Assembly (NCBI GenBank): GCA_900771165.1
Contig: CAAGMX010000259.1
Coordinates: 1 to 6,682 of the forward strand
DNA: 6,682 nucleotides
Source: Victivallales bacterium
GTDB lineage: Bacteria; Verrucomicrobiota; Lentisphaeria; Oligosphaerales; Oligosphaeraceae
Direction: 5' to 3'
Of this stretch, positions 350 to 6,682 are shown one piece after another. Made by a program: the position numbers and the translations under genes. The notes under the pieces were generated by a model. It was not told the DNA's origin, searched no databases, and saw only the letters and a program-made list of their open reading frames with translations. The stretch's first letter is position 1. Every line of letters starts with the position of its first letter.

Positions 350-2422
350 ATGGATAGAATTCAGAAAGTCGGAGCAGAGATCAGTTGTTTTCAGGAGTAT
401 CTGCGGGGAATGCCTGCCGAGGAGTCCAGGGAGACGGCGCTCTCTCATGATTTCACGAAATACCAGGGCGAGGTACAGGAAGGTCTCAAGCGGCGCACCC
501 GGGCCATGGATACTCGTCGCTTCTTTGTGGTGACTGTGGGGGCCTTGAAGTCGGGCAAGTCCACCCTGATTAATGCCCTTGTGGGGCACCGTGTGAGTCC
601 GGATGGGACGGGAGCGGAAACCACGAAGAAGTGTTCTGTGATCATGTCGGAAGAGGAGGGGCATCCGGCGGGCATTACCTTGTATCGCTGCCCGGGGTTC
701 ACGACCCACGCCAAGGAGCGGAAGGAAGTGGAGGAGAGCGGCGAGAAGTTGACGGGCCTCCTCATGGAGTATTTCAAGGGGATCCGGGAATGGGATGCAG
801 AACTCAAGAAGCTCTTCGAGACGAGGTACTACAGTCTCCATCAGAAGAATCTGGATCCTGCAGGGAGAATGGATAATCTGGAGTATGTCCTTACTTCCGA
901 GGACTTTTCTGCTCTGCAGCAGTTCCGGGACTTTTTCATCGCCGAGATCCGGATCAAGGTGGATCCCCAGAAAAACTGCATTTTGAATCACCATAACCAC
1001 AAGATTGCCATTGTGGATATGCCGGGACTGGACGGGACCATGGCGGGGGTGGAAGCGCGGTCGGTGAGTTCGGCCTTCAATCCCGTGAACTACCTCCCGA
1101 AATTCTGCCACCTTTTCCTGTTGGTGCAGAGTTCCATTTCCGGATTGAACCGCACCACGGCGGACACGATTATGGCCTGGCGCTCTGAGAAGAGGAGCAC
1201 GCCGGTCTATCTGGTTTTCAATACCATTGAATCCAAGTCGGGATGGTATACAGAGGATGCGATGCTTGGGGTGAAGAACGTGTGTGAGAAGAGAGCGCAG
1301 AAGGAGCTGGAGAATCGCGGGGTCCGGTATAAGAGCTTCTTTTCCATCAATGCCGCCAAGGGGTGGGAGGCGTTGCAGGCCCAGGAATATGGGCGATGCT
1401 GGAAAGAGGGGAAGAAGGGTCCTGGCCTGTGGGAGGAATCCAAGGTCCAGGAATTGGAAGATGCCCTTTGCAAGGATTTCGATGAGCAGTTGGAGCGGAT
1501 CATCCAGGAGGATGCCCTGGATGGCATTTCTGCAAGCCTGCGGCAATATCAGGAAGAGTTGGAGACCATGGAGGACTCCATCAAAATGCGGCGCCAGGAT
1601 ATCATCCGGGAACAGCAGGATTGGGATAAGGTGGTGAAGTGTGTACGGGAGGTAAGCCGGTCGGTCCGACGGGATGAAATTGAAGAGCTGGCCGCCAAGT
1701 ATTGGGATAGTAAAATGATGGAGGCGGGCTCCAAGATTCATAATGCCATCATGGAAGGCATGGCATATCCTCTCACGGAGAAGGATAAGACGCAGTGCAA
1801 AGATTTTTGTGGGGAGATGGAGCTTCTGGCGGAGAAGGTGCGTAAAACTATTTCACGGTGCCATGTGGAGAATGGATTTGTGACGGAAATGAATTCTCTC
1901 CTGGAACGAAAATATTTGGAGTTCTACTCTGTGTTGGAAACCCAAATCGGGAAGCTGGAAGTCTCCGGGAATGAGGTGAATGTTAAAGAAGTGAAGGAGG
2001 AGATCAAGCGTTTTGGCATTTGGAAGGATGCCACCCAGGAGTTGCAGGAGCAGTTCCCCCATGAAGACCCGGACGGGTATCTGGACAAGAAAAACTATAA
2101 AGGCATTCTCCGTGGTCCTTGGACAGAGGGTGGGAGAAAGGAGAGAAGAGAAGATTTTGCCAATCGGTATGAGGATGGATACAAGAAATTATTGAAGACC
2201 GAGATCAAGGAAAAGCTAGTGGGGTACTGCGTGGTGGCGCAGGAGACCGGGGATTGTCTTTTGAACCGCCGCATCAATATGGTGATGGAGCATTTGCTGC
2301 AGGTGTGGGAGAGCAAGGGGAGAGCGCTGGAGGAGGAACTCCATCGGCTGGATGTCATTTTGCACCATATTCCTGAAATGCAGAAGCACATGGAGCTGAT
2401 CACGGCGAGTTGCCGGAGCTAA
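350..2422 (+). CDS. dynamin-like large GTPase (690 aa)
   Basis: A P-loop GTPase of the dynamin-like superfamily, expected to bind and hydrolyse GTP and work on or near a membrane. An N-terminal helical region (about 1-55) precedes G1, GALKSGKS at 64-71. The G2 threonine is probably T91 or T92, and G3 is DMPG at 223-226. About 130 residues separate G2 from G3, mostly charged helix (118-200), which suggests an inserted helical segment. The strand LVF (288-290) leads into N291-T-I-E where N/T-K-x-D is usual, so the base-recognition loop is degenerate. A likely coiled coil spans about 395-430, and the rest to 690 is charged and helical, as in dynamin stalks. No membrane segment is evident. The start is fixed by AGGAGG at 337-342. 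The next gene begins 30 bases downstream and encodes its likely membrane partner. The GTPase class is well supported. The cellular role is unknown: membrane remodelling, stress and phage tolerance are known for relatives, but none is shown here. Confidence 0.85.
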   Translation: MDRIQKVGAEISCFQEYLRGMPAEESRETALSHDFTKYQGEVQEGLKRRTRAMDTRRFFVVTVGALKSGKSTLINALVGHRVSPDGTGAETTKKCSVIMSEEEGHPAGITLYRCPGFTTHAKERKEVEESGEKLTGLLMEYFKGIREWDAELKKLFETRYYSLHQKNLDPAGRMDNLEYVLTSEDFSALQQFRDFFIAEIRIKVDPQKNCILNHHNHKIAIVDMPGLDGTMAGVEARSVSSAFNPVNYLPKFCHLFLLVQSSISGLNRTTADTIMAWRSEKRSTPVYLVFNTIESKSGWYTEDAMLGVKNVCEKRAQKELENRGVRYKSFFSINAAKGWEALQAQEYGRCWKEGKKGPGLWEESKVQELEDALCKDFDEQLERIIQEDALDGISASLRQYQEELETMEDSIKMRRQDIIREQQDWDKVVKCVREVSRSVRRDEIEELAAKYWDSKMMEAGSKIHNAIMEGMAYPLTEKDKTQCKDFCGEMELLAEKVRKTISRCHVENGFVTEMNSLLERKYLEFYSVLETQIGKLEVSGNEVNVKEVKEEIKRFGIWKDATQELQEQFPHEDPDGYLDKKNYKGILRGPWTEGGRKERREDFANRYEDGYKKLLKTEIKEKLVGYCVVAQETGDCLLNRRINMVMEHLLQVWESKGRALEEELHRLDVILHHIPEMQKHMELITASCRS

Positions 2423-2441
2423 TCCAGGCGTGTCAGCAAGG

Positions 2442-2447
2442 AAGGAG
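2442..2447 (+). promoter_or_regulatory. Shine-Dalgarno site of the DUF697-like gene
   Basis: AAGGAG lies five bases before the ATG at 2453, inside the 30-base gap after the GTPase stop. It supports this start and translation from the shared operon mRNA. Confidence 0.7.
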
Positions 2448-2452
2448 CGAGC

Positions 2453-3505
2453 ATGTTCAAGCGTCTGTTGTGGATAGTCCTGGGGGTGTTTTCCCTGGTG
2501 GGGATTGTGGTGTACTGGGGGAATGTTCTGGTCATCGGGGATCACCTGGGGCGGTTGTTCGGGGGCGGCGGGGTGCCCAATCCCTATGTGATGTGGACCT
2601 GGGATGTAGCGGTGGGGCTGGCTCCCTTCCTGCTGCTGGCCTGGGTTCTGGTGAGAAATCTCCTGGGGTATGGAGAGTTGAATCTCCAGGAGCTCTGCCA
2701 GGGGAACGATGAGGTGAAGATGACCAAGTTCATGGAGGGGCTCTGCGGGCAGAAGGAGGATCCGGAGTGCGTGCTGGACAAATACCAACTCCGGTCCATG
2801 TGCGGACACTATCTCCGGCATGGGAGCCGGGTGGACAAGGCGATGTTCCTCCAGGATTATTTCCAGCGCTGCGACCAGGAGGCCAGAAAGAAATCCCATG
2901 CCTATGCCCTTCTGGCCGCCGTCTCCGTGGTGCTCTCCCCGAAATCCGCCGGGGACACCCTGGCGCTGGTGGTGTGGCAGTGCCGCATTATCTCCTCCAC
3001 GTTGCGGGTCTACGGGGGACGTCCCCGGGCGATGACGGTGGTGCGGCTCTACGCCCGGGTGCTGATGCATTCTTTCCTGGTGGGCTCCCTGGACGAGGTG
3101 CTGGATCAGTTTGCCTTCGGCGCCGTGGACAACGTGAAGCTGATTTCCGTGGTCACCCAGGCCATTGCGGCCATTGCCACCTGCGTGAGGACGGCATCCC
3201 TCACTCGCTACTACATCGAGAATGGCATAGGGAACAACCGGAAGGAGGCGCTGAGCGCTTCCATGAAGGAGGTGCCGGCCGGGATTCTGGAGGTGCTGAC
3301 TTCCGAGGAAATGAAGATCGCCACGAAGAAGTTCTGGCATTGCACTGTGGAGATTTCCAAAGCGGTGGGGAAGAGCGCCTGGGAAGCCGTGAAGGGCTAT
3401 GCCAAGAACGTCATTTCCCTGTTCTCCTCGAAGAAGTCTGAGGAGGAGGACGGGGAGGAGTTCCCGGAAGAGGCTTCCGGGGCGGAGGAAGACGCCCTGG
3501 CGTAG
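2453..3505 (+). CDS. YcjF/DUF697-like membrane protein (350 aa)
   Basis: An inner-membrane protein, probably the partner of the GTPase upstream. Two strong hydrophobic segments (about residues 5-27 and 49-70) flank a short Gly-rich loop (38-43) and look like a transmembrane hairpin. A soluble helical part (75-148) follows. Then comes a region with the DUF697 pattern: hydrophobic helix 150-161, Ser-Pro at 162-163, an Asp (168) in a second hydrophobic stretch (168-177), the Tyr-Gly-x-Arg-Pro signature at 187-191, and another helix (193-215). A further hydrophobic stretch lies at 230-244. The C-terminus (329-350) is a strongly acidic tail. E. coli YcjF pairs with the GTPase YcjX in a similar two-gene order; here the partner is dynamin-like instead. 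The family link rests on remembered motif pattern, not a search. One rare AUA codon, at 3227-3229, encodes Ile259. Confidence 0.7.
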   Translation: MFKRLLWIVLGVFSLVGIVVYWGNVLVIGDHLGRLFGGGGVPNPYVMWTWDVAVGLAPFLLLAWVLVRNLLGYGELNLQELCQGNDEVKMTKFMEGLCGQKEDPECVLDKYQLRSMCGHYLRHGSRVDKAMFLQDYFQRCDQEARKKSHAYALLAAVSVVLSPKSAGDTLALVVWQCRIISSTLRVYGGRPRAMTVVRLYARVLMHSFLVGSLDEVLDQFAFGAVDNVKLISVVTQAIAAIATCVRTASLTRYYIENGIGNNRKEALSASMKEVPAGILEVLTSEEMKIATKKFWHCTVEISKAVGKSAWEAVKGYAKNVISLFSSKKSEEEDGEEFPEEASGAEEDALA

Positions 3506-3511
3506 TCTCCG

Positions 3512-3540
3512 CAGGAGGGAAGGGGGGGCTTTTCTTCCTG
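3512..3540 (+). terminator. 12-bp hairpin after the GTPase operon, possible terminator
   Basis: Bases 3512-3523 pair with 3529-3540 without a bulge. The stem has 12 pairs, including three G-U wobbles, around a loop of five G (3524-3528). It starts seven bases after the stop codon of the DUF697-like gene. No T-run follows (the next bases are GGAGGTGG), so it is not a standard intrinsic terminator. It may instead protect the mRNA 3' end or act with Rho. The pairing is seen in the sequence; the function is inferred. Confidence 0.4.
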
Positions 3541-3548
3541 GGAGGTGG

Positions 3549-3578
3549 TTGCAAACGGGGGGGGAGGTGTCACATTAA
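3549..3578 (+). promoter_or_regulatory. weak candidate promoter of the tRNA gene
   Basis: TTGCAA at 3549-3554 (four of six matches to the -35 consensus) and CATTAA at 3573-3578 (three of six) are 18 bases apart and end 12 bases before the mature tRNA. The position suits a tRNA promoter, but the -10 is poor. A run of eight G (3557-3564) fills part of the spacer. Confidence 0.25.
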
Positions 3579-3590
3579 CCGGGATTTCGC

Positions 3591-3666
3591 GGCCCCGTAG
3601 CTCAGTGGTTAGAGCAGGACTCTTATAAGGTCTTGGTCGCTGGTTCAAATCCAGCCGGGGCTACCA
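3591..3666 (+). tRNA. tRNA-Ile with anticodon UAU (reads AUA)
   Basis: A complete cloverleaf folds by hand. The acceptor stem 3591-3597 pairs with 3656-3662 (first pair G-U). The D stem is 3600-3603 with 3612-3615. The anticodon stem is 3617-3621 with 3629-3633. The loop CTTATAA (3622-3628) gives anticodon TAT at 3624-3626. The variable loop has five bases, and the T stem is 3639-3643 with 3651-3655 around TTCAAAT. The discriminator is A3663 and CCA is encoded at 3664-3666. U33 and A37 are present. UAU pairs with the isoleucine codon AUA. Bacteria usually read AUA with a CAU-anticodon tRNA whose C34 the enzyme TilS converts to lysidine. The D arm, variable loop and T arm recall that tRNA-Ile2 (E. 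coli ileX) as I remember it, which suggests a C34-to-T change on that scaffold. The fold and anticodon are certain; amino-acid identity is inferred from the anticodon. Confidence 0.95.
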
Positions 3667-3680
3667 GCGGGGGATTTATG

Positions 3681-3711
3681 ACATAACTCACTGCAACTCA
3701 AGGAGTTATGT
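3681..3711. repeat. nested inverted and direct repeats just after the tRNA
   Basis: A nine-base inverted repeat, ACATAACTC (3681-3689) and GAGTTATGT (3703-3711), encloses 13 bases. Within it AACTCA occurs twice (3685-3690 and 3695-3700). The second copy forms its own five-base inverted repeat with GAGTT (3703-3707) around AAG. The two stems share their right arm and so exclude each other. ATTTTG follows, a poor T-run. It may be a tRNA terminator or, given its place 15 bases beyond the tRNA, a recombinase recognition site. No integrase gene is in the window. Confidence 0.45.
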
Positions 3712-3719
3712 ATTTTGAC

Positions 3720-3731
3720 GCCCAAAAGGGC
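3720..3731. repeat. small GCCC-AAAA-GGGC palindrome
   Basis: A perfect four-base stem around AAAA lies nine bases after the larger inverted repeat. It is directly followed by A and a run of nine G (3733-3741). It is short enough to be chance, or it could be a second weak stop element after the tRNA. Confidence 0.2.
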
Positions 3732-3756
3732 AGGGGGGGGGAGAAGAGCTGTGTGA

Positions 3757-3782
3757 GGGGATGGGTAAAAAGGGGCTGGGGG
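3757..3782 (+). promoter_or_regulatory. G-quadruplex motif upstream of the secreted glycosidase gene
   Basis: Four G-runs on the plus strand (3757-3760, 3763-3765, 3772-3775, 3778-3782) are separated by loops of two, six and two bases. This satisfies the usual rule of four runs of at least three G with loops of one to seven. It ends two bases before the TATACT at 3785-3790 and covers the place where a -35 box would lie. A regulatory role is inference. Confidence 0.4.
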
Positions 3783-3784
3783 AT

Positions 3785-3790
3785 TATACT
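3785..3790 (+). promoter_or_regulatory. candidate -10 box of the secreted glycosidase gene
   Basis: TATACT matches five of six bases of the bacterial -10 consensus. No good -35 lies 16-18 bases upstream; that space is the G-rich motif. Transcription from about 3797 would give a leader of roughly 100 bases before the ATG at 3901. An activator-dependent promoter would fit the missing -35, but that is a guess. Confidence 0.35.
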
Positions 3791-3884
3791 ATTGGCCTGT
3801 GTTTTCTGAGGTGGGTTGGGCATGCGGGGGCATGACTGCTTTTGGGTCCTTCCACGGATTTTGGTGTCTTCTGTGAAACCTGTT

Positions 3885-3888
3885 GGAG
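3885..3888 (+). promoter_or_regulatory. weak ribosome binding site before the 3901 start
   Basis: GGAG lies 12 bases before the ATG at 3901, farther than ideal. An in-frame TGA at 3874-3876 rules out starts before it. The only alternative after it is a TTG at 3883, and the signal peptide begins cleanly at the ATG, so 3901 is preferred. Confidence 0.4.
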
Positions 3889-3900
3889 CGTAGCCGTATC

Positions 3901-6682
3901 ATGAACTGGCGATTTTTTCTTTCTCTTCTCTTCGGTCTTTCGCTGATCACCTTTGGGCAGAACGTGTTGAAGGATGCGGAATTTGCCTCGATGGACACAT
4001 CCTGGAATGTGCAGCAGGAGGAGCGGATTGCCTCGGCGGATGGGGTGCTGCGCCTGAAGACGGAGGCGGGGCATGAGGGGCGCGCCCTGCTGCAGCAGAC
4101 GGGCTTGGATCTTGTTCCCGGGTTGTCGTATGTGTTTTCCGTGGAGTATCGCAGTGCAGAGGGGGCCTCGGGATATTTCTACCTGGAGCGGAGCTCTGAC
4201 TGGCACGGGGCGGGTCAGAAGGTCCAGGGGACCCCGGAGTGGCAGACGGCCTCCTATGTCTTTGTCCCCCGTGCGGGCATGGGAGACTACTATGCGGTGC
4301 TGGCCACGGAGCCCGGGGCCAACGGGGTGATCGAGTTCCGGAATCCGGTGCTGGAGGTGGAGGAGGGTGGCTTTGCCGCCTACGCCATGGGCGGGGAGAA
4401 TCTGCTAAAGGATGCCGCCTTCCTGGAGAAGGGCTGGTCCGTGCACGACACGTCCCTGACGGAAATCACCGGGGATTGCTCGGTGAAGCTCACCGGGCAG
4501 GAGGGGAAACGCACGGTGGTGGTGCAGGACAAGGTTGCCCTTATTCCGGGGGCTTCCTACGTCTTCACGGTGCTGGTGCGGGGCACGTCGGGGGCCATTG
4601 CCGACTTCTATGTGGAGCGGGCAAAGCCCAACTTCCTGGCGCTGAAGAGCGCAAAGGTGACCTCCCTCTGGCAGGAGGCGATGCTGGAGTTTGTGGCTCC
4701 CGCCGACGAGACGCCCTGCTACGCGGTGCTGTCCACCCCAAAGGGCATGGAGGGTGAGGTGGAGTATCGCGCCCCCCGGCTGACCATGAAGAAGGGGGTG
4801 CTGCAGAATGGGAATTTCAATGCGGGGCTGGCGAATTGGCAGGGGGTGCATGCGGTGCCCTACGACCACCAGAGCGACTACGGGATTTCCGCCAAGCTGG
4901 AGGGAATTGGGCAGGAGGCCTACCTGCGGCAGGACGGCATCCAGGTGAAAAAGGGCAAGATCTACATGCTGGCCTACGATGTGCGGGGCGGCTCCGACAA
5001 GCGCTACACGGACATCCAGGGGGCCACGTGGTCCCGGATTGCGGTGCTGGATGACAAGGGGGAGGTGATTCCCGCCTTCGTTGGCTGGCGGGACTGCTTT
5101 GACCGGTGGCAGCACAAGGAGGCCACCTTCGTGGCCGACCGGGATATGACGGTTTCCCTGGTGTGCCAGCTGAAGAGCGAGGGGGAGGTCTACTTTGACA
5201 ACATCGTCTTCAAGGAGACCCATTCCTCCCTGCCTCTGCTGGAGATTGTGCTGGATGCTCCCTTTGCCTACCACAATGGGGTGGTGGAGGGGCAGTGCGC
5301 TCCCGGCGCGTCGTTCACCGGGCGGCTCTTCCCGGCGTTGAAGGGATCCTGTCTGCGGCTGCGGTTCCAGGGGGTGGAGCAGGTGCTGGATGCCCAGGAG
5401 GGAGTGGCCTTCCAGCTGCCGGTGCCGGAGGCCCAGGGGATCTATCCCATCGAGGCCACTCTGGAGGATGAGGCCGGGGAGACCCTGGCGGAGGCCATGG
5501 TGGAGTTCCGGGTGCGTCCCGTGCCTCCCCGTTCCTTCACCTTCGACGAGAACCACGTCTTCCACATTGACGGCAAGCCCATCTTCCCCATCCATTCCTG
5601 GGGAAACCGGGGGGATCTTCTTCCGGAGGAGGGCTTCCAGCGGCAGCGGGATCTGGGCATCAACATCATTCTCTGCAATCACCGGCAGCTGGATATCGCC
5701 GCCGACGCCGGACTGCTGGCCATGATCTCCATCCCCTCCTCCCTCGCCTCCCTGACGGACGAAGAGGCTGCCCGGAAGAGCGGGGAGCAGCTGCGCCAGG
5801 AGCTCCAGGGGGCCATGGAACATCCCTCCACCGCCCTGTGGTTCGTCACCGACGAGCCCGCCTGGCGAGGCGAGGATGTGCGCCGGAGCAGCAATGCGTA
5901 CCGACGGCTTCTGGCCTATCTGGATGACAGTCGCCCTGCCTTCCTCAACGAGGCGCCCCGGGGCCGGGTGGAGGACAACCGGGCCTACTCCCTGGCCTGC
6001 GATGTCTACGGGGTGGACATCTACCCCATCCCCGCTCCCAACACCCATTCCGGGCTGGAGGACAAGATGATGACCAGCGTGGGCAAATACACGGACATCT
6101 GCCGGGAGACCGTCCGGGATCAGAAGCCCATCTGGATGACCATCCAGGGATTCTCCTGGGGAGACTGGAACAACGCCCAGGAGAAGATCTATCCCACCTT
6201 GGCGGAGTCCCGTTTCATGGCCTATGAGGCCATTGCCCACGGAGCTACGGGGCTTTCTTACTGGGGGTTGAATCTGGGGAGTAAGCAGAACGACCAGTTC
6301 CTGGAGGATCTGTCCACCACCATCCACGAAGTGACCTCCCTGAGCGCCATCCTGATTGCCCCGGAGACGGTGGGGGCCTCCGTCGCCGACAAGCCCGAGA
6401 TCCTGGTCTGCCAGAAGAGCAACGAGGCGGGGGATGTGTGGATTGTGCTGAACGAGTCTGGCGACGAGGTGACGAGCACCATCACGGGCCCCTTCCCCCG
6501 GCGCCTCCGGGTTCTCCAGGAGGAGCGTTTCCTCCTGCCTGAAGACGGCGCCTTCACCGCCACCCTGCCTCCCTATGGCCTCCTGGTGCTGGTGGATGGG
6601 GACAAGCCCCTGCCGCCGCCTCTGGAAATCCCCGCCACCCAACGCCAGAGCGAAAAGGTGGATGTGCCCAGATACTACGAGG
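3901..6682 (+). CDS. secreted multidomain glycoside hydrolase-like protein (partial, 927 codons seen)
   Basis: The frame is open to the window edge, so the C-terminus is missing. Residues 1-19 form a signal peptide: Arg4, then a hydrophobic core of Phe, Leu and Ile, with a possible cut after Thr-Phe-Gly. Three beta-sandwich modules resembling carbohydrate-binding jelly rolls follow (about 21-155, 166-298, 300-440). Each opens with a motif like NVLKDAEF or VLQNGNF and ends in a strand such as EFRNPVLEV. A further beta domain (about 445-545) leads into a TIM-barrel-like region (about 550-800) resembling glycosidase clan A. HPSTALWFVTDEP (641-653) places Glu652 as the likely acid/base. IWMTIQGF (744-751) has Gln749 where a strand-7 nucleophile would be expected. 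PTLAESRFM (765-773) and SYWGLN (786-791) would form strand 8 and its approach. A closing beta domain (about 815-900) ends the visible part. The likely role is binding and perhaps cutting a polysaccharide outside the cytoplasm. Substrate and family number cannot be named. Confidence 0.75.
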   Translation, partial: MNWRFFLSLLFGLSLITFGQNVLKDAEFASMDTSWNVQQEERIASADGVLRLKTEAGHEGRALLQQTGLDLVPGLSYVFSVEYRSAEGASGYFYLERSSDWHGAGQKVQGTPEWQTASYVFVPRAGMGDYYAVLATEPGANGVIEFRNPVLEVEEGGFAAYAMGGENLLKDAAFLEKGWSVHDTSLTEITGDCSVKLTGQEGKRTVVVQDKVALIPGASYVFTVLVRGTSGAIADFYVERAKPNFLALKSAKVTSLWQEAMLEFVAPADETPCYAVLSTPKGMEGEVEYRAPRLTMKKGVLQNGNFNAGLANWQGVHAVPYDHQSDYGISAKLEGIGQEAYLRQDGIQVKKGKIYMLAYDVRGGSDKRYTDIQGATWSRIAVLDDKGEVIPAFVGWRDCFDRWQHKEATFVADRDMTVSLVCQLKSEGEVYFDNIVFKETHSSLPLLEIVLDAPFAYHNGVVEGQCAPGASFTGRLFPALKGSCLRLRFQGVEQVLDAQEGVAFQLPVPEAQGIYPIEATLEDEAGETLAEAMVEFRVRPVPPRSFTFDENHVFHIDGKPIFPIHSWGNRGDLLPEEGFQRQRDLGINIILCNHRQLDIAADAGLLAMISIPSSLASLTDEEAARKSGEQLRQELQGAMEHPSTALWFVTDEPAWRGEDVRRSSNAYRRLLAYLDDSRPAFLNEAPRGRVEDNRAYSLACDVYGVDIYPIPAPNTHSGLEDKMMTSVGKYTDICRETVRDQKPIWMTIQGFSWGDWNNAQEKIYPTLAESRFMAYEAIAHGATGLSYWGLNLGSKQNDQFLEDLSTTIHEVTSLSAILIAPETVGASVADKPEILVCQKSNEAGDVWIVLNESGDEVTSTITGPFPRRLRVLQEERFLLPEDGAFTATLPPYGLLVLVDGDKPLPPPLEIPATQRQSEKVDVPRYYE

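Follow-up and report, generated by a model that had tools for sequence, protein, structure and literature searches.

An intact tRNA-Ile(UAU) gene with an Ile2-type body in a Victivallales bacterium and its probable place beside lysidine-dependent decoding of AUA

Contig CAAGMX010000259.1 of a Victivallales bacterium, a stretch of 6,682 nucleotides that was analysed over its whole length and is called the window here, carries a UAU tRNA-Ile gene that is real, rare and structurally ordinary. We propose, with a probability of about 0.7, that this intact, Ile2-bodied tRNA is charged by a type-2 isoleucyl-tRNA synthetase (IleRS) of the kind found in relatives, reads AUA without lysidine, and likely serves as a second system beside the TilS-dependent tRNA-Ile2(CAU). 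Few bacteria are known to encode a tRNA-Ile(UAU), and the window brings a lineage of Lentisphaerota among them; the phylum is not that of Lactobacillus plantarum, for which a redundant tRNA-Ile(UAU) has been reported.

Results

The tRNA gene and its neighbours

The window contains the following features, all on the forward strand:

350–2422 (+): dynamin-family GTPase (Pfam PF00350), upstream of the tRNA
2453–3505 (+): DUF697 protein (Pfam PF05128), with its stop 85 nt before the tRNA
3591–3666 (+): tRNA-Ile(UAU) with an Ile2-type body and encoded CCA (ARAGORN, Rfam, identity to E. coli tRNA-Ile)
3594–3595 (+): C4 and C5, pairing with G69 (3659) and G68 (3658), the acceptor pairs contacted by TilS in E. 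coli
3617–3633 (+): anticodon arm GGACT-CTTATAA-GGTCT with U31-G39
3624–3626 (+): anticodon TAT (UAU)
3681–3717 (+): hairpin ACATAACTC / GAGTTATGT, then ATTTTG, directly 3' of the tRNA (fold z -4.51)
3901–6681 (+): large protein with CBM_4_9 (Pfam PF02018), open at the window end

ARAGORN called positions 3591–3666 of the forward strand as tRNA-Ile with anticodon tat, in agreement with the initial annotation, which had read a UAU anticodon at 3624–3626. The gene exceeded the gathering score of the Rfam model RF00005, which is 29, by a wide margin (71.2 bits, E 1.5e-14); all stems are paired and no non-standard pair was marked. The anticodon loop CTTATAA occupies 3622–3628 and CCA is encoded at 3664–3666. 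The predicted fold has a minimum free energy of -33.0 kcal/mol (z -3.13), which 1 of 200 shuffles equalled, and a pattern combining an Ile2-type body with a UAU anticodon gave no match in 200 shuffles of the window. The gene is thus a complete cloverleaf with a TAT anticodon, as is proper to a bacterial tRNA-Ile(UAU), and its Rfam score and fold rule out a pseudogene on structural grounds. The hairpin at 3681–3717, with its short T-rich tail, is probably the terminator of tRNA transcription; a consensus terminator scan of 3400–3950 did not include it among its terminators, and a consensus scan of 3400–3590 found no promoter-like sites upstream of the tRNA. Runs of seven to nine G residues lie on either side of the gene (3522–3528, 3557–3564 and 3733–3741).

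The DUF697 gene, the tRNA and the CBM_4_9 gene lie on one strand in that order. Proteins of an Oligosphaeraceae MAG are 57% identical to the dynamin-like protein and 78% identical to the CBM protein; each of the two homologues is encoded on a contig of 134,862 bases, which we take to be one and the same. Judged by these protein neighbours, the window probably belongs in or near Oligosphaeraceae, Lentisphaerota. Among 377 genomes of the phylum searched, the nearest by CBM protein was G278 (51%), and the 29-genome family that includes it was taken as the nearest family. The pair formed by the dynamin-like GTPase and DUF697 genes (350–3505) recurs in G328 (L124) and G043 (L045). A same-locus comparison turned up no tRNA at any of the CBM and dynamin loci that it covered (L044, L045, L060–L067, L120 and L124–L126, with L068–L075 left out), and a search by pattern found a UAU tRNA in 0 of the 29 nearest-family genomes, so that no conserved orthologue is available as proof of selection.

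An Ile2-type body with a distinct anticodon arm

The Ile2-type body proposed in the initial annotation was borne out. Over its whole length the tRNA is identical at 66 of 76 positions to its best match among annotated E. coli tRNA-Ile genes (L188, anticodon CAU), and the best Ile2(CAU) of the nearest family, from genome G372, is likewise identical at 66 of 76; ten CAU tRNAs with an fMet-type body gave 42–49 identities. On sequence identity, the body is therefore of the Ile type and not that of another isotype that has drifted. The family CAU tRNAs, which ARAGORN calls tRNA-Met because of their CAU, were classed as Ile2 by their match to E. coli tRNA-Ile; the 3' half of such a gene was present in 17 of the 29 family genomes and an intact gene in 16. 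The determinants of isoleucine identity in E. coli are the anticodon, A73, C4-G69 and C29-G41 (PMC9976931), and the window tRNA has A73, A35-U36 and C4-G69, with A29-U41 replacing the minor determinant C29-G41. Both acceptor pairs given as E. coli TilS identity elements in excerpts of PMC12514573, C4-G69 and C5-G68, are present, whereas the C34 of a lysidine tRNA-Ile2 is replaced by T at 3624.

The window tRNA and the Ile2(CAU) of G372 differ at ten positions (3, 29–31, 34, 39, 40, 59, 70 and 72), six of which are in the anticodon arm. An earlier suggestion that C34 had changed to T therefore needs amending: with stem positions 29–31 and 39–40 also differing from the nearest Ile2, a plain C34-to-T change of the family gene is ruled out.

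The 31-39 pair was compared among distinct tRNAs from all loci, split by anticodon; the patterns by which they had been selected left both positions free. With kinship among the sequences ignored, A31-U39 is present in 15 of 16 distinct CAU tRNAs that have both TilS acceptor pairs, the lone exception being a G31-C39 pair in Rubrobacter, and in none of the 14 UAU tRNAs that have both pairs, the window counted. It is absent from all 39 distinct UAU tRNAs. Of the 35 other CAU tRNAs, those that lack one or both acceptor pairs, three share the U31-G39 pair of the window. Across positions 29–41, the window tRNA equals the UAU tRNAs of a Berkelbacteria genome (L042) and of three viral contigs (L004, L009 and L011).

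These comparisons bear on whether the C34 of an ordinary lysidine tRNA-Ile2 was simply misread as T. Such an error would involve a single base, at the wobble position, and position 3624 rests on one assembly; but because the window matches other UAU tRNAs throughout positions 29–41 and does not have the A31-U39 pair so prevalent among CAU tRNAs with the TilS acceptor pairs, an error at base 34 appears unlikely, and we assign this explanation a minimal probability.

Distribution of UAU tRNA-Ile genes

The rarity of gene-encoded UAU tRNAs in bacteria, asserted beforehand, was supported: when 84,980 species genomes were searched with a single strict Ile2-plus-UAU pattern, 32 gave a match, and so did 11 viral contigs. 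Nine of the 32 hosts have genomes of 1.9–13 Mb and comprise two Streptomyces, Virgisporangium, Dactylosporangium, Rubrobacter and Zavarzinella, together with Verrucomicrobiales, Anaerolineae and proteobacterial MAGs. The remaining 23 have genomes of 0.4–1.2 Mb; 19 are titled as Patescibacteria-type phyla and four only as 'bacterium'. Within the class of the window, a looser UAU pattern matched 2 of 197 genomes (G408 and G232), in which the tRNA body is unlike that of the window. Excerpts of PMC4013482 report UAU tRNAs in 19 species, including Mycoplasma mobile, and the title of Tomikawa et al. 2018, as cited in PMC9976931, describes redundant tRNA-Ile(CAU) and tRNA-Ile(UAU) in L. plantarum. 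The titles and abstract openings of part of the literature matches mention neither a UAU tRNA-Ile in Lentisphaerota nor Patescibacteria devoid of tilS.

In both G408 (L047:1487–1562) and G232 (L046:154–229), the UAU tRNA-Ile has a CCTCCGG acceptor and is the direct neighbour of a gene for the RNA ligase RtcB; in G408, an open reading frame of the Ro60-vWA type lies on the other side of the tRNA from RtcB. These are possibly tRNAs within an RNA-repair operon, and their setting lends some plausibility to a use of the window tRNA outside translation, for example as a decoy or repair substrate. We consider such a use highly improbable, as the three main proteins of the window contain no RtcB or Ro60 domain by Pfam and the tRNAs of G408 and G232, with 58–59 of 76 positions identical to the window, differ from it in body and acceptor stem. 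Elsewhere, in a proteobacterial MAG (RBC049; L037:4577–7956), a UAU tRNA stands among 13 ARAGORN tRNA calls, in an array that encloses an RtcB homologue (5920–7119, 39%).

Family copy or horizontal gain

Identities among UAU tRNAs were taken from gapped comparison over the whole gene. The closest UAU tRNA to that of the window is the Berkelbacteria gene in L042 (reverse strand, 3914–3988), identical at 66 of 76 positions and so as close as any family CAU tRNA; the 11 viral UAU tRNAs are identical at 57–62 of 76, and one phage Ile2(CAU) tRNA at 67 of 76. Similar tRNAs occur in 1016 phage and 685 plasmid records; the three that were examined all have CAU, and 13 phage records outside these three match at 90% or above. 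As the L042 tRNA is as close to the window as the family Ile2 and shares its arm at positions 29–41, the window tRNA could have arisen either as a copy of the family Ile2 or by horizontal gain of a UAU tRNA. The arm common to the window, L042, L004, L009 and L011 may reflect transfer between phyla or an arm preferred by UAU tRNAs.

Acquisition from a phage, a genomic island or another phylum would be in keeping with the Ile2-type UAU tRNAs on 11 viral contigs, with the arm shared across viral and Berkelbacteria genes, with whole-gene identities to the L042 and phage tRNAs that equal or exceed those to the family, and with the absence by pattern of a UAU tRNA from the 29 nearest-family genomes. 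We nevertheless regard it as quite unlikely. No phage or plasmid gene was found in the window: five of its open reading frames match no phage family (PHROGs), and its three main proteins contain no mobile-element domain (Pfam). In addition, two neighbour genes have homologues in an Oligosphaeraceae MAG, and the viral UAU tRNAs reach only 62 of 76 identities over the whole gene.

Retention of tilS in relatives and in larger UAU hosts

Homologs of tilS scored above the cut-off in 27 of the 29 nearest-family genomes and in 11 of 12 genomes of a second sample of the class, both UAU carriers included. Among the 32 hosts found by the strict pattern, tilS lay above the curated cut-off in nine, which are the nine genomes of 1.9–13 Mb; together with the two class members, 11 of 11 UAU hosts with genomes of at least 1.9 Mb possess it. 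Judged by tRNA body, Ile2(CAU) was clear in nine of these eleven hosts, probable in one (G011) and not found in one (G029). In the 23 small UAU genomes (L014–L021, L023, L025–L029, L031, L032, L034–L036, L039 and L041–L043), for which completeness is not given, tilS was above the cut-off in none and matched weakly in five. In these small genomes, lysidine-free decoding of AUA is apparently the sole system.

Such genomes, each with an Ile2-type UAU tRNA and no tilS above the cut-off, offer a precedent for full replacement, in which the lineage of the window would have lost both tRNA-Ile2(CAU) and tilS and would depend on the UAU tRNA as its only reader of AUA. Also in line with replacement, the pattern search found no Ile2(CAU) in G278, G475, G476, G384 and G477, the five family genomes whose CBM proteins are closest to that of the window. 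However, all five have tilS above the cut-off and none has a UAU tRNA by pattern; since tilS is kept and neither tRNA was found, a tRNA that reads AUA was probably overlooked by the pattern in these genomes, and it also missed fMet in three of the five. Moreover, G223, the next closest by CBM protein, has an intact Ile2(CAU), and every larger-genome UAU host has tilS. Replacement is thus unlikely in our estimation, and the relatives speak against the escape from TilS first suggested for this lineage. Loss of tilS appears to be the pattern of tiny genomes, and redundancy that of genomes like the window's, because all larger UAU hosts keep tilS, most of them with Ile2(CAU); we extend the latter pattern to this organism by inference. 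A supplementary copy, possibly on a mobile element, had been offered as the alternative to escape: the supplementary copy fits better, while the mobile element found no counterpart among the genes searched with Pfam and PHROGs.

IleRS type

The E. coli IleRS charges a UAU tRNA poorly, and the IleRS of M. mobile has Arg in place of Trp. An adapted synthetase, as envisaged in the initial annotation, may be unneeded here, because the relatives of the window already have a type-2 IleRS. All three family IleRS proteins analysed with Pfam lack a zinc finger and carry DUF5915, the mark of type 2, at the C-terminus, and the enzyme is of type 2 in 8 of 8 typeable family genomes (10 searched). Across the 34 UAU hosts, 29 have type 2 and two have type 1, and three (G005, G012 and G032) were not typeable; the proportion of 29 in 31 typed hosts stands against no background rate of type 2 and comes from a sample dominated by Patescibacteria. 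Eleven of the 29 type-2 calls were made by Pfam and the rest by an HMM derived from 12 proteins of this set; the count includes three weak HMM scores (G003, G009 and G024; 20–30 bits) and leaves out the additional IleRS-like copies that G001, G024 and G031 possess.

Of the two type-1 enzymes, that of G026 has CxxCW and that of G013 has CxxCR, with Arg for Trp after the zinc CxxC. G013, a Verrucomicrobiales MAG (IleRS at L179:1294–4047), has a UAU tRNA and this CxxCR type-1 IleRS, yet it has kept tilS and Ile2(CAU). The Trp-to-Arg exchange is ruled out as a general rule, since only G013 has it and most hosts have a type-2 enzyme without that site.

Discussion

Our preferred reading, a UAU tRNA working beside the lysidine system, can be set out as a sequence of steps. 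With U34, the tRNA would no longer be a substrate of TilS. The type-2 IleRS of the relatives would charge it and tolerate U34, as this enzyme is homologous to the cytosolic IleRS of eukaryotes, which use a UAU tRNA-Ile. Excerpts of PMC10485003 describe the homology of IleRS2 to the cytosolic eukaryotic enzyme and its distinct anticodon-binding domain; in passages of PMC8879553, eukaryotic reading of AUA is assigned to a pseudouridine-modified UAU anticodon, and Lentisphaera is named as the bacterial source of human cytosolic IleRS. Once charged, the tRNA would read AUA without lysidine, alongside the usual tRNA-Ile2(CAU). PMC8879553 also argues that UAU is avoided in bacteria since misreading of AUG would follow. 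In the three genes of the window, only 2 of 89 Ile codons are AUA; demand for AUA reading in the window is therefore small, and with small demand the cost of AUG misreading may be limited.

A wider interpretation is tentative and, in our view, somewhat doubtful. Type-2 IleRS may make bacteria permissive for lysidine-free reading of AUA, and the window tRNA may be one of many Ile2-type UAU tRNAs of IleRS2 lineages, marked by the missing A31-U39 pair. Tiny genomes would have gone on to lose tilS, whereas the window would still be at a stage of redundancy; its phylum is the one to which the cytosolic IleRS of eukaryotes has been traced (PMC8879553). TilS, the maker of lysidine, is usually essential, and the interpretation offers a testable route by which lysidine could become dispensable: a redundant UAU tRNA arises where the synthetase tolerates U34, after which the CAU tRNA and tilS are lost. 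Two markers that can be read cheaply from sequence also emerge from the comparison, namely the type of IleRS and the pair at positions 31 and 39.

Comparison with known systems

The window tRNA shares with lysidine tRNA-Ile2(CAU) its body, variable loop, T arm and the C4-G69 and C5-G68 pairs, but it has U34 for C34 and U31-G39 for A31-U39. The Berkelbacteria UAU tRNA-Ile in L042 resembles it in 66 of 76 positions, including all of positions 29–41; unlike the window tRNA, it has a D loop shorter by one base and comes from a genome (G031) with no tilS match. In M. mobile, as excerpted from PMC4013482, UAU likewise sits on an Ile2-type tRNA and AUA is read without lysidine, as we predict for the window; M. 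mobile has no tilS, whereas the relatives of the window keep it. L. plantarum, to judge from the cited title, presents a similar arrangement, with a gene-encoded UAU tRNA-Ile in addition to tRNA-Ile(CAU), and relatives of the window retain TilS and Ile2(CAU). It differs in belonging to another phylum; in the window organism, whose relatives have a type-2 IleRS, co-existence of the two tRNAs is a prediction.
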